IMG/VR virus record: IMGVR_UViG_3300042923_000444
Coordinates: 1 to 33,672 of that record
DNA from: a virus
Length of the DNA stretch: 33,672 nt
Direction: 5' to 3' (one strand)
Shown one piece after another: positions 9,811 through 30,541 of this stretch. The first letter of the stretch is position 1. Each line of letters begins with the position of its first letter. The notes beneath the pieces were generated by a model, which had not been told where the DNA came from, did no database searches, and was given only the letters and a program-made list of their open reading frames with translations. Both the position numbers and the translations under genes were made by a program.

Positions 9811-10965
9811 ATGAGTAAGCCGTACCGGAGGGGTAACGGACTCTGGGCACAAGCCATAGAACTCCCCCCCACCATCGACCCCGAAACCGGGAAACCCAAA
9901 CGCCGCCGCAAAGTCATCTCCCACAAAGACAAAGGCACCGTCATCCGACGCGCCCGCCAAATGCTCCTCCAACTCGAAGAACACGGCGACCTCCCCACCG
10001 ACAACATGACCGTCAACCAATGGTTCGACTACTGGGTGAGAGAGTACGCAGCGAAAACGAGACGCCCGAAAACCCTCGCCTCCTACCAATCCATCATCCG
10101 CAAACAGATCCTCCCCACCATCGGCCACGTGAGGCTGGACAAGCTCACCCCCACCACGATCCGCAAAGTCACCACCGCCATGGACGACGCCGGCCGATCC
10201 TCCACGTATCAACGAAACGCGCACTCCATCATGGCGGCAGCGTTCAAAGACGCGGAGAGGGAAGGACGCATCCGACGCAACCCCGTCGAGCTCGTCCAAG
10301 CCCCCGTCAAAGCCGTCCCCAAACTAGAAGCGCTAACGCTGGAAGAAGCGATCGCGCTCCTCGAAGTGTTCTCCCAATCACCCGAGGGGGCGCTGTGGGC
10401 GACCTTCATCCTCACCGGGGCGAGAAGGGGCGAAGTCATCGGCCTCGAGTGGGACAGGGTCGGAGACGTCCTAGACCTGTCGTGGCAACTCCAACGCATC
10501 ACCAGTGGCGCGCCGATCCCCCCCGGGTTCGAGTACCGGCACCTCACAAACGGGCTGTACCTCACCCGCCCCAAGACGCGTGCAGGGTGGCGTGTGGTGC
10601 CCCTCGTCGACCCCCTCAAGTCCATCCTCGAACGGTACCGGGCAACATCCACGAACCCATACGGGCTACTGTTCACCCGCCCGGATGGGACACCGTTCGA
10701 CCCGGACCACATCACGAAGACGTGGCCCCTCATCCTCGAAGCCGCCGGCATCAACAAGAAGATTCGTTTGCATGACGCCCGACACACCACTGTCGACTTG
10801 CTCTATGCGGCAGGGGTGGACGAGAACGACCTGACCGCGATCATTGGCCACTCGTCTCGGGTGATGTCGCGGGCGTATAAGTCGAAGGCGAGCGTGGACA
10901 GGTTGCGGACTGCGATGTTGCAGCTCTCCGCATCCCTCGGCCATGTCGCCGAGGGGAGTGAGTAA
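9811..10965 (+). CDS. int: Tyrosine-family site-specific integrase
   Basis: 384 residues. Domains: N-terminal arm-binding region (1-60, basic, KRRRKVISHKDKG); core-binding SAM-like domain (65-160, TVNQWFDYWVREYAAKTRRPKTLASY); catalytic domain (175-375). Catalytic residues read as Arg205 (TGARRGEVIGLEW), Lys255 (RPKTRAGWR), His321-x-x-Arg324 (LHDARHT), His347 (IIGHSS) and Tyr356 (SRAYKSK). It recombines attP with the host tRNA-Arg gene; the arm-type repeats at attP suit its N-terminal domain. It is transcribed rightward toward the immunity region. The Xis candidate is at 12715. The first third uses strongly C-ending codons. Confidence 0.95.
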   Translation: MSKPYRRGNGLWAQAIELPPTIDPETGKPKRRRKVISHKDKGTVIRRARQMLLQLEEHGDLPTDNMTVNQWFDYWVREYAAKTRRPKTLASYQSIIRKQILPTIGHVRLDKLTPTTIRKVTTAMDDAGRSSTYQRNAHSIMAAAFKDAEREGRIRRNPVELVQAPVKAVPKLEALTLEEAIALLEVFSQSPEGALWATFILTGARRGEVIGLEWDRVGDVLDLSWQLQRITSGAPIPPGFEYRHLTNGLYLTRPKTRAGWRVVPLVDPLKSILERYRATSTNPYGLLFTRPDGTPFDPDHITKTWPLILEAAGINKKIRLHDARHTTVDLLYAAGVDENDLTAIIGHSSRVMSRAYKSKASVDRLRTAMLQLSASLGHVAEGSE

Positions 10966-13778: not shown

Positions 13779-14463
13779 CCCACCTCGCATTGCCTCCACT
13801 TCTGGTGGACACCCGCGTCACGGCGGAGCAATGCACGCAAGACAACCAAATACTGCTGGCCCACCAGGGGCCGGGGACTCCCAAAAACCCTCACCGGGTC
13901 GGGATGCGAACCGGTCAACGATGGCGCGATTCGTACTGATGGATGACTCAATCCCCAGCACAAATCCCGGCCCCTGGCCCAGCAGGCGAAACAAGACTCA
14001 CAGGAAACCGTAGCTGTAGTGGGCAGGCGGGGGCGGGGTCGAAAGGGAAGAGCAGGAGTGACTTTGACGGGTCACCTGCTCAAGAGTCAGGCGTTATGAC
14101 GCCTGATACATATTTTGGCGCTGATGGTTCGGCTGCTGACTCCCTGGGCATAGGTCACTGAAACGCGACGGCGTGACGGTGTGATCGTTTGACTCCCGGG
14201 GCATAGGCCGATGAAGGCGCGCGGACGCGCAGGGCTGACGGTTCTTTCGTCGTGGTTCGACTCCACGAAGCCCGCGATGCAGCGAGCGGGACGCCTGGCT
14301 ACCAGTGCGGTAATCCACCCGCGACGTGTCAAACCGCGAGCTTGGCGGGCATCAGTGAAAGCACCCTAGCTGCGGGGTAACGCAGAGCCCTGGGACGGTA
14401 CACCGCTGTGCGAGTCAGCGGCAGGGCGCCACACATTCACTCCGCAACCGAAGGGAGCCCGTC
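13779..14463 (+). ncRNA. Non-coding block with many predicted hairpins (candidate structured RNA or control region)
   Basis: No convincing gene in 685 bp, exceptional in this packed genome. Seen: CCAGGGGCCGGG near 13862 inverted near 13957-13970; a bulged 11-bp hairpin (14050-14081, GAGCAGG...CCTGCTC); TCAGGCGT-TATG-ACGCCTGA (14087-14106) then a T-rich tail; two 26-bp direct repeats with four mismatches (14137-14162, 14190-14215); a compact three-way junction at about 14230-14276 containing the T-arm-like GTGG-TTCGACT-CCAC; and CCGCTG-N7-CAGCGG inside CCCTG...CAGGG (about 14389-14427). It could be one or more regulatory RNAs, a promoter/attenuator array, or an origin. Exact RNA ends are unknown. 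Confidence 0.45.
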
Positions 14464-27686: not shown

Positions 27687-27738
27687 TTCCCTCGGGGGTG
27701 GCTGTATCTCGTCGCGGTGACGACGCAAACCACACCAC

Positions 27739-27842
27739 GGGGCTGACAGGAAAGGCCCGACACCCGAAGACGCCGTAACCACCCGGCGCATTGACATGTC
27801 TTCGGTGGTCGGACACACCGGTTTCGATTACCGGCAGCTCCA
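27739..27842 (+). ncRNA. tmRNA/tRNA-like RNA with alanine-type acceptor stem
   Basis: A 104-nt fold: acceptor GGGGCTG (27739-27745) with CAGCTCC (27835-27841), giving a G3-U70 wobble (the AlaRS identity mark), and A27842 as discriminator. T-arm CCGGT-TTCGATT-ACCGG (27818-27834) with consensus loop. In place of an anticodon arm a long helix: CCGAC/GTCGG (27757-27761 with 27808-27812), 2x2 internal loop, CCGAAGAC/GTCTTCGG (27764-27771 with 27798-27805), and an apical GCCG/CGGC hairpin. The D-region ACAGGAAAGGC holds GG pairs but no D-stem. This is the tRNA-like domain of tmRNA without the tag-coding region. A weak promoter (TTGATT 27683-27688, TATCTC 27705-27710) and a downstream hairpin suggest a real transcript. 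CCA is not encoded. Confidence 0.5.
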
Positions 27843-27883: not shown

Positions 27884-27917
27884 ACTCTTACTCTTCCCTT
27901 TCGACCCCGAGGTGCAC

Positions 27918-28262
27918 ATGCGCGTGTGCAACATCCCCGGATGCCCCACCCTCCACAACGGCAAGGGTGGACGCTGCCCACAACACGCCCGCCAAGCGGA
28001 CAAGGCGCGCGGCACCAGCAGGGACCGAGGCTACACAACCCCCGGACACCAGGCATTCCGCACGGCGGTACTCACACGAGACCCCATCTGCGTCCTCTGC
28101 CGCCGCGCATTCAGCACAGTAGCGGACCACTACCCACGGTCACGCAAAGAACTCCTCGAGCTCGGACTCAACCCCAACGACCCTGACGCTGGCCGCGGCC
28201 TATGCAAACCCTGTCACGACACAGAGACCGCACACAACCAGCCCGGAGGCTGGCACACCTGA
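27918..28262 (+). CDS. HNH endonuclease of the packaging module
   Basis: 114 residues; ATG 27918 (GAGGTG upstream) preferred over the in-frame GTG two codons earlier. An N-terminal zinc knuckle (VCNIPGCPTLHNGKGGRCPQ, His23) is followed by the HNH motif: ICVLCRRAFSTVADHYPRS (C58, C61, D70-H71), GLCKPCHDTETAHNQ (C96, C99, H100, H106). HNH proteins coded just before the small terminase are known partners of terminase in cos-type packaging. Its position upstream of the candidate cos region fits that job. Confidence 0.9.
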   Translation: MRVCNIPGCPTLHNGKGGRCPQHARQADKARGTSRDRGYTTPGHQAFRTAVLTRDPICVLCRRAFSTVADHYPRSRKELLELGLNPNDPDAGRGLCKPCHDTETAHNQPGGWHT

Positions 28263-28455: not shown

Positions 28456-28914
28456 ATGACTTCTGGTGGTGCTCGGGCTCGTAGTGGCCCCCCGGCTGAT
28501 CCGAACGCTTTGCGGCGCGATCGTGCGGGCGATAAGGAGTGGGCGACTCTGCCTGCTGAGGGGTTTCAGGGTGAGATCCCCGAGTTCCCGTTGCCCGACG
28601 CGTTGGCGGCTGAGGTGGCGTTGTGGGCGAAGCTGTGGCGGAAGCCGCAGGGTGTGATGTGGTCGCGTCTGGGCCTTGAGTTTCAGGTGGCGGCGTATGT
28701 GCGTGCGTTCCTTGAGTCGGTTCAGGAGAAGGCGTCTGCTGGTTTGAAGACGGCTGTGCTTCGCATGGAGGCGGAGTTGGGCCTGTCGACGGTTGGTATG
28801 GGTCAGTTGCGGTGGAAGATCGCGGCGGATGAGGTTGCTGAGCGGCGCGGGGAGGCGAATGCGCCTGCTGCCCGGCAGTCAGCTCGGGACCGGTTGAAGG
28901 CCCTCAATGAGTAG
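28456..28914 (+). CDS. terS: Terminase small subunit
   Basis: 152 residues from ATG 28456. An N-terminal Gly/Arg-rich tail (GGARARSGPPADPNALRRDR), a segment LPAEGFQGEIPEFPLPDALA, and helices AAEVALWAKLWRKPQGVMWS, VAAYVRAFLESVQE typical of the actinophage small terminase family. It recognises the packaging site and feeds DNA to the large subunit. It overlaps terL by eight bp. Confidence 0.85.
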   Translation: MTSGGARARSGPPADPNALRRDRAGDKEWATLPAEGFQGEIPEFPLPDALAAEVALWAKLWRKPQGVMWSRLGLEFQVAAYVRAFLESVQEKASAGLKTAVLRMEAELGLSTVGMGQLRWKIAADEVAERRGEANAPAARQSARDRLKALNE

Positions 28915-30541
28915 GCCGATGTTCGTTACGGCGGAGTGGATCGAGGCTCATTGTGTGATTCCTGATCAGGAGTCGCGTGGTGAGCCTTTCCTGTTGGGTG
29001 ATGACCAGTTGCGGTTTGTGCTGTCGCATTACTCGGTGAAGTCTGACGCGCTTCCGGCTGGGGCGATGGTTGCTGGGCGGCGGGTGAAGCCTGCTGATGC
29101 GTTCCTGTTCCGGCGGTCGCAGTTGGTGCGGGCGCAGAAGTGGGGCAAGTCTCCGCTGGTGTCGGCGTTCGTGTGCCTTGAGGGTGTGGGGCCGGCGACG
29201 TTCGCGGGGTTCGCTGAGCCCGGCGACGTGTACGACTGCCGTGACTTCGGGTGCCCTTGCGGGTGGGTGTACGAGTATGAGCCGGGCGAGCCGATGGGTA
29301 AGCCGTGGGTGACTCCGCTGATTCAGATCACCGCGACGACTGAGGATCAGACCGATAACACGTACGACGCGTTGCGGCCGATGATCGAGCTGGGGCCGTT
29401 GTCTGAGGTGATCCCGAAGACGGGTGAGGAGTTCATCAGGCTTCCGAACGGTGGCCGTATTGATGCGGTCACGTCGAAGGGCAACTCGCGTCTGGGTCAG
29501 CGCGTCACGTTCGTTGTTCAGGATGAGACGGGGCTGTGGCTCGAGACGAACGGCGGCTGGAACCTGGCGAAGAAGCAGCGTCAGGGTCTCGCCGGTATGG
29601 GTGGCCGTGCGATCGAGACGACGAACGCGTGGAACCCTGCCGATAACTCGGTGGCGCAGCGGACTTACGAGTCGAAGTCGAAGGACGTCAATAAGGACTT
29701 CGAGCAGCCCCCCGCGGATCTGGACTTCAAGAAAAAGTCGGATCGGGCGAGGATCTTCGCGTTCAACTACCGTGCAGCCCCGTGGGTGTCGCTCTCTGCG
29801 ATTGAGGGCGAAGCGGCGGAGATGTTGGAGACGTCGCCGGCTGATGCTGAGCGGTTCTTCGGTAACCGGATTGTGTCTGGGTCGGGTGCGTGGTTTGAGA
29901 TGCCGAAGTGGGATGCGAAGAGCGCTCCTGTGGAGGTGGCGCCGCGTACTCGGGTGTGTCTCGGGTTCGACGGGTCGGACAACAACGACTTCACCGGTAT
30001 CCGGTTGGAGACGTTGGACCAGTACCAGTTCACTCCGACGTATGGGGACGCGAACCGTCCGACGTTGTGGGAGCCGGGTGACTGGAACGGGCGTATCCCG
30101 AAGTCTGAGGTGAACGCTGCTGTTGACGAGCTCGCGAACCGGTTCGAGATTGTGCGTGCGTACTGCGACGTCATGTTCTGGGAGTCGGAGATCGACACGT
30201 GGGCGTCCCTGTACGGGGAGAAGGTGTTCATCGGGTGGCGCACGAACCGTGTGACGCAGATGCACGCCGCGCTCGAGCGGTTCCGGGGGGATGTGTACAA
30301 CCCGGATTCCCCGTTCCGGCATGACGGTGATCCGGTGACGACCACGCATGTGCGTAATGCGATTGTGCGGTCTCGTGCGTTGAATCCGCTCACGAAGGAG
30401 CGGCAGTACATCCTCGGGAAGCCTGAGGAGCATCAGAAGTTCGACTATGCGATGTCGTCGGTTCTTGCGCATGAAGCGGTCATGGATGCGATCGCGGATG
30501 GTGCCCTGGCTGCGAAGCCGGACAACTTCATTTATTACTGA
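28907..30541 (+). CDS. terL: Terminase large subunit
   Basis: 544 residues. ATPase: Walker A-like RAQKWGKSP (75-83), Walker B VVQDET with Asp206/Glu207, coupling ITATTEDQT (141-149). Nuclease: RNase H-like triad candidates Asp355 (GFDGSD), Asp421 (YCDVMFW) and Asp513 (KFDYA). A CRDFGCPCG zinc-like insert at 111-119. It motors DNA into the prohead and cuts the concatemer. ATG 28907 overlaps terS. Length is normal for the family. Confidence 0.95.
   Translation: MSRPMFVTAEWIEAHCVIPDQESRGEPFLLGDDQLRFVLSHYSVKSDALPAGAMVAGRRVKPADAFLFRRSQLVRAQKWGKSPLVSAFVCLEGVGPATFAGFAEPGDVYDCRDFGCPCGWVYEYEPGEPMGKPWVTPLIQITATTEDQTDNTYDALRPMIELGPLSEVIPKTGEEFIRLPNGGRIDAVTSKGNSRLGQRVTFVVQDETGLWLETNGGWNLAKKQRQGLAGMGGRAIETTNAWNPADNSVAQRTYESKSKDVNKDFEQPPADLDFKKKSDRARIFAFNYRAAPWVSLSAIEGEAAEMLETSPADAERFFGNRIVSGSGAWFEMPKWDAKSAPVEVAPRTRVCLGFDGSDNNDFTGIRLETLDQYQFTPTYGDANRPTLWEPGDWNGRIPKSEVNAAVDELANRFEIVRAYCDVMFWESEIDTWASLYGEKVFIGWRTNRVTQMHAALERFRGDVYNPDSPFRHDGDPVTTTHVRNAIVRSRALNPLTKERQYILGKPEEHQKFDYAMSSVLAHEAVMDAIADGALAAKPDNFIYY

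Follow-up and report, generated by a model that had tools for sequence, protein, structure and literature searches.

Whether a 104-nt stretch upstream of phage packaging genes encodes an RNA in its own right, and of what kind, is the question raised by positions 27739-27842 of a 33.7-kb IMG/VR virus record (63% G+C), which was analysed over its whole length of 33,672 nt and is referred to here as the window. The initial annotation proposed a compact tmRNA-like RNA of alanine identity adjoining the packaging genes, a description that the present analysis upholds. tmRNA is the bacterial ribosome-rescue RNA, and 27739-27842 is a real, conserved phage RNA resembling the tRNA half of tmRNA without the message half. 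Its parts are as follows.

27739..27842 (+): tag-less tmRNA-like RNA, 104 nt through discriminator A73 (fold, family CM, chance test)
27739..27745 (+): 5' strand of the acceptor, GGGGCUG, which supplies G3 of G3-U70 (sequence, fold)
27746..27756 (+): D-loop-like stretch ACAGGAAAGGC, 11 nt, stemless, with GG retained (fold)
27757..27812 (+): P2-like extended hairpin replacing the anticodon arm, with 5 bp, a 2x2 loop, 8 bp and a nested 4 bp (fold)
27813..27817 (+): linker ACACA joining P2 to the T-arm (family consensus AYACA)
27818..27834 (+): T-arm CCGGU-UUCGAUU-ACCGG, 5 bp, loop UUCGAUU (fold)
27835..27841 (+): 3' strand of the acceptor, CAGCUCC, which supplies U70 (sequence, fold)
27842..27842 (+): discriminator A73 (sequence)

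The MFE fold (-44.6 kcal/mol, z -3.2; equalled by none of 200 shuffles) contains the acceptor GGGGCUG/CAGCUCC with G3-U70, the T-arm, the stemless D-like stretch and the P2 helix, with neither D-stem nor anticodon arm, just as had been claimed, and it adds a nested hairpin of 4 bp, capping the 8-bp P2 helix, that the earlier description did not include. A 7-bp acceptor joined directly to a 5-bp T-arm with a UUCRA loop occurs at a single site on the two strands of the window, compared with a mean of 0.09 sites per shuffled window, and the same combination with G3-U70 and A73 was found in 0 of 300 shuffled windows. The RNA thus carries the alanine identity of tmRNA (G3-U70 plus A73), along with its T-arm, its stemless D-loop and a P2 where the anticodon arm would be. 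Pseudoknots are absent, as is any tag reading frame with a resume codon, the 104 nt and a single interior hairpin leaving no room for them, as anticipated. The D-stem and anticodon arm of a canonical tRNA-Ala are likewise missing from the fold; ARAGORN called neither a tRNA nor a tmRNA, Rfam gave no match at gathering level, RF00005 included, and a canonical tRNA was rejected on the silence of both. Because A73 (27842) is followed directly by CTCC, with no encoded CCA, CCA addition would have to be post-transcriptional. A coding sequence across 27739-27842 found no support either, as sister phages lack the cassette or differ wholly in its interior.

The RNA lies among the following features.

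27713..27736 (+): conserved leader CGCGGTGACGACGCAAACCACACC (34 IMG/VR contigs)
27912..28262 (+): HNH endonuclease gene, directly downstream of the RNA (PHROG 589, E 5.6e-17)
28907..30541 (+): terminase large subunit gene (PHROG 19179, E 2.9e-128)
9811-10965: tyrosine integrase gene, 17 kb from the RNA

Portal and head protease genes also lie downstream of the RNA. Terminase relatives in named genomes, at 45-53% identity, belong to Streptomyces, Gulosibacter and other Actinomycetota, and the host is probably an actinobacterium; an exact search of genome contigs with the leader gave no match to a host. The promoter-like and terminator-like pair once thought to bracket the RNA did not hold up, as there is no sigma-70-type promoter and the sole terminator-like match (27802-27821) lies inside the RNA. 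Between the HNH and terminase genes, the gene at 28456-28914, in the small-terminase position before the large subunit, matches PHROG 226 'minor tail protein' (E 3.9e-20), a label that may be wrong for it.

The contigs that share the leader all come from two metagenomes. Behind it, sister phages carry an RNA of the window type, genuine tRNAs (Thr in L229/L250 and a Gln type in L227, among others) or other tRNA-like RNAs, and tRNA-Asp, -Asn, -Trp or -Leu often come next in the slot. Members of the window family retain the acceptor, the D-loop GGAAAGC, the linker AYACA and the T-arm, and their P2 hairpins are unrelated in sequence yet self-complementary. The hairpins sort into several unrelated modules, some common to different acceptor/T-arm chassis (L025/L233; L010/L245), which points to exchange by recombination. 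Family acceptors with G3-U70 comprise GGGGCTG/CAGCTCC, GGGCCG/CGGTCC, GGGGCG/CGCTCC and GGGGCTC/GAGCTCC, the sole exception being GGGGTG/CATCCC in L008/L234. For most members, unedited MFE folds display the acceptor, P2 and the T-arm, the exceptions being L249, L321 and L008; for L249 and L321, whose folds do not take the family shape, membership is doubtful.

Compensatory changes in homologous phage loci, whose absence had been named as grounds for abandoning the proposal, proved abundant. All five T-arm pairs are altered on both sides within the family, and in the family alignment, for which hairpins were trimmed by hand, 96.2% of cells are paired versus 75.1% after shuffling, with a covariation score of 0.453 versus 0.105. 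The family CM (R1), also built with hand-trimmed hairpins, scores 48-80 bits on members and 67.6 bits on the window RNA, itself in the training set; support for P2 comes instead from the unedited folds and from a pairing test on 79 sequences given below. The cassette is clean and swapped among sisters: near-identical phages lack it, and in L003, with an 81% identical HNH, the flanks are present and the RNA is absent.

Several further RNAs were seen in these contigs. On the minus strand of L242 (824-881), a second tRNA-like RNA of 57 nt has the acceptor UGGUCAG/CUGACCA and a T-arm, no D-stem, a CGCG hairpin replacing the anticodon arm and no G3-U70. Another type, at L018:2833-3000 and in the same slot in L230/L232, has the 5' end GGGTAACCGCGAAGCC and ends in a T-arm/acceptor with a CCGG-loop-CCGG arm; ARAGORN made no call for it in L018. 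In the L235 slot and in L245 from ~2780, a tRNA-like gene opens with an ordinary D-arm-like segment, GATCGTCTAATGG, and has a large structured insertion at the expected site of the anticodon arm. Finally, downstream of the first RNA in L001 and L242, short stretches TGCGAG...GTTGCAACCCTCGCA, repeated in several contigs, combine an end stem of 7 bp with a core like a reduced T-arm.

Pattern scans of IMG/VR revealed that the window RNA has far more numerous counterparts, with more than 100 RNAs of 72-105 nt in many metagenomes. The first, loose scan returned mostly chance matches. A pattern for the alanine acceptor plus T-arm matched 108 stretches; among 105 instances examined, ARAGORN called only 7 as tRNAs, and most of the others were tmRNA-like RNAs with no tag, many of which have the D-loop GGnnTCGAC of tmRNA. 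A second pattern specified D-loop, linker and T-arm only, with D-loop TCGAC and GGAC built in and the acceptor left free, and at least 120 stretches matched it. Among the matches listed, 80 of 95 sequences had a 7-bp acceptor and T-arm, and every one of the 80 combined G3-U70 with A73, on 23 different acceptor helices. In 30 diverse members of this wide class, pair 3-70 is invariably G-U (30/30), whereas pairs 4-69, 5-68 and 6-67 vary freely, each with at least four pair types in the acceptor-free set. An invariant G-U amid freely covarying neighbours is the prediction of selection for charging by alanyl-tRNA synthetase. The same 30 members have 99.3% of cells paired versus 68.2% when shuffled, 172 double-change cells and a covariation score of 0.822 versus 0.163. 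Furthermore, in 79 distinct RNAs an average of 5.43 pairs form across the six outer P2 positions, compared with 2.57 (sd 0.14) when partners are shuffled. A search of 296 genomes from one phylum, the actinobacteria, with stricter filters, gave no clear tag-less copy; six of its best seven hits (41-44 bits) are real tmRNAs or tRNA-Ala by ARAGORN, and the seventh, L503, is without a proper acceptor.

Some traits recur within the wide class. The P2 cap, for example in L403:7989-8066, has the motif GUAARRCC-G...C-GG-A. Several of the RNAs, like the one in the window, adjoin terminase or capsid genes, and L395:2764-2841 sits between the terminase large subunit gene (1106-2530) and the next gene. 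One stretch, L363:8452-8531, matches the Rfam type II hammerhead ribozyme at 37.8 bits (gathering 37).

At least seven isolated phages encode such an RNA, and nearly all of these copies are unannotated. In the Streptomyces phages BRock, LuckySocke, GiJojo, pSt2308 and Alone3 the RNA lies inside tRNA arrays with RNA ligase genes close by, and in GiJojo a hypothetical protein has been annotated over it. The RNA of Pontimonas phage phiPsal1 (L486:3001-3079) precedes the capsid gene, and Stenotrophomonas phage Jojan60 also encodes one; in none of these seven phages does the annotation identify the RNA for what it is. In Arthrobacter phage Elezi, an unannotated relative of 77 nt (L264:2949-3025) with acceptor GGGGCGG/CCGCTCC and G3-U70 lies upstream of an HNH gene at the genome end; the closely related phage London shares the flanks but not the RNA. 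Hits in the phages SM1, Rb1 and GMA2 were set aside as resembling the ends of full tmRNAs, as was the fecal hit MT836032, which resembles a tmRNA end or an attachment site.

How these RNAs relate to tmRNA can be gauged with the Rfam tmRNA model RF00023, which has a gathering score of 47 bits. Most wide-class RNAs tested exceed it, and the model is matched end to end (1-374) by ~80 nt: L427 scores 70.8, L274 69.5 and L385 67.5 bits, and among isolated phages BRock scores 64.5, Jojan60 61.8, LuckySocke 57.1 and phiPsal1 54.6 bits; L269, L281, L292, L354 and Alone3 fall under the threshold. Full-length matches by RNAs of this size indicate that wide-class members are tmRNA minus the message domain. 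The window RNA itself went unmatched when checked, as had been proposed, against tmRNA and tRNA models, RF00005 and RF00023, the latter at gathering or at E<=10. Its nearest Rfam match is RF04321, the acceptor piece of permuted tmRNA, at 11.2 bits; a permuted two-piece tmRNA was rejected on the normal order of the acceptor strands and on the partial nature of this match. With a wide-class model built without it, the window RNA scores 27.4 bits, below the 30-44 bits of tRNA-Ala genes and real tmRNA ends, so that the score is not specific. The tmRNA D-loop motif UCGAC is also missing, and the tie to tmRNA rests on the anatomy and on the intermediates L269/L298, which combine the GGAAAGC D-loop of the window family with the cap motif and linker of the wide class. 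The window RNA is certainly tmRNA-like, and its derivation from tmRNA is proposed, from these sequence features, with moderate confidence. Alternatively, the window family might be a D-armless tRNA derivative that converged on the look of tmRNA, as its D-loop and linker are unlike those of tmRNA, RF00023 does not recognise the window RNA and the slot also holds tRNA-like RNAs with other acceptors (L242:824-880). However, L269/L298 bridge the GGAAAGC D-loop to the tmRNA-like class, L298 scoring 41.5 bits in a match that spans all of RF00023, and the window family agrees with tmRNA both in where GG lies and in having P2 instead of an anticodon arm. Convergence is unlikely, though it keeps a real share of the probability.

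The initial annotation's suggestion that such an RNA would be new was too strong, as a phage 'TLD only' tmRNA, DS6A, is already on record (PMC4131195, PMC11915505). It is likewise phage-encoded, with little beyond the tRNA-like domain of tmRNA and no tag frame, and the window RNA agrees with it in anatomy and context, as compared by description. By the same kind of comparison, the window family differs from DS6A, reported as a single case, in that its P2 is longer and hypervariable and its D-loop lacks the tmRNA motif. One-piece tmRNA (RF00023) has GGGGCUG/CAGCUCC, G3-U70, A73, the T-arm, the stemless GG D-loop and P2 for the anticodon arm in common with the window RNA, which, however, is 104 nt rather than ~350, has no tag frame or pseudoknots and is not matched by that model. 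In two-piece tmRNA, it is the acceptor piece (RF04321) that the window T-arm and acceptor 3' strand resemble, but the window gene is unpermuted and holds both acceptor strands within one short RNA. The full-length tmRNAs of phages such as Bxz1, Cosmo and Melnitz, the last a two-piece form (PMC9004378), are also phage-carried ssrA-like genes but retain the tag frame. The mitochondrial tmRNAs of jakobids and oomycetes and the ~65-bp plastid tmRNAs of Mallomonadaceae likewise have the tRNA-like domain and lack a reading frame (PMC3985003, PMC11915505); these are single-lineage reductions, whereas the window RNA is a mobile gene in phages of intact bacteria. Tag-less tmRNA was therefore already known from one phage and some organelles. 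As far as the literature searched shows, what is new is the abundance and host range of such RNAs in phages, the conserved alanine identity proven with an acceptor-free search, the presence/absence behaviour of the cassette, and the divergent branch with exchangeable hairpins seen in the window.

The function most in keeping with this picture, and one to which slightly better than even probability may be given, is that of a tmRNA mimic with no tag, probably alanylated, which would vie with the tmRNA of the host for SmpB and for stalled ribosomes. A molecule similar to DS6A is described as a strong inhibitor of tmRNA whether or not it can be charged, perhaps through SmpB titration (PMC4131195, citing Mao et al., 2009; PMC11915505). 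From sequence and fold, we infer the following course. The RNA gene would be transcribed together with late or tRNA-slot genes, RNase P would cut the precursor at G1, CCA would be added, and host alanyl-tRNA synthetase would charge the product through G3-U70. EF-Tu and SmpB would then bind the charged RNA, which would rival the host's own tmRNA in binding SmpB and in reaching ribosomes stalled at the ends of mRNAs and, once in the ribosome, accept the nascent chain and provide no resume codon, so that trans-translation would be inhibited during infection. No SmpB gene was found in 20 carrier contigs checked, so that host SmpB would have to do the recognising. Because charging is dispensable in the described inhibitor, yet alanine identity is strictly kept here, the natural RNAs may act inside the ribosome as charged competitors, and not simply soak up SmpB. 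More broadly, and more tentatively, with somewhat under even probability, phages of many hosts may carry mobile genes for alanylated tag-less tmRNAs that serve as ribosomal dead ends switching off trans-translation, an RNA-only anti-host device that current annotation has overlooked and whose P2 would be fast-evolving in the window family.

Other functions appear improbable to differing degrees. A chargeable, anticodon-less RNA might be a decoy or resistant substitute facing tRNA-directed host toxins, or a spare alanine donor; the slot is otherwise occupied by tRNAs, the Streptomyces phage copies lie in tRNA arrays near RNA ligase genes, and the P2 hairpin is hypervariable in the manner of an arms race. 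Against this, the RNA is without the anticodon loop at which such toxins usually cut, most wide-class members have no nearby tRNA gene (13 of 80 have one within 500 bp), and the class keeps the tmRNA-specific D-loop and linker motifs TCGAC and GGAC, although these were part of the search pattern; this reading is improbable. Less probable still is a minimal productive rescue RNA, in which alanyl-RNA and SmpB would enter stalled ribosomes, add one or more alanines, and aid release or mark the chain. The strict retention of alanine identity would fit, and tag-less mitochondrial tmRNAs, for which a similar role has been proposed in outline, persist alongside SmpB (PMC11915505); however, the only phenotype on record for such a molecule in bacteria is inhibition (PMC4131195). 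There is, moreover, no resume codon or stop to recycle the ribosome. That the locus is a functionless ssrA attachment-site remnant or decayed tmRNA gene, as the initial annotation allowed, can be given almost no weight: its 3' 25 nt resemble the attP of phages that integrate into tmRNA genes, and the phage encodes a tyrosine integrase, but attP in ssrA retains only the 3' part of the gene, whereas the window RNA still has, with covariation, its 5' acceptor strand, D-loop GG and P2, the acceptor helix is complete with compensatory change in both strands, the integrase (9811-10965) is 17 kb off, and the cassette, itself clean, has been traded among sister phages.

The tmRNA literature searched names a single phage precedent, DS6A, against more than 100 IMG/VR candidates here. 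If the RNAs inhibit rescue, interference with trans-translation would be a common phage strategy, an idea that is testable at once in the cultured phages BRock, LuckySocke, phiPsal1 and Elezi, the last against RNA-less London; if they rescue ribosomes instead, they would show how little of tmRNA suffices. Elsewhere in the window, an isolated T-arm, CGTGG-TTCGACT-CCACG, at 14234-14275 is followed by AAGCCCGC and has GGGCT upstream; it may be an attP lying in a tRNA gene, or else a further mini tRNA-like element.
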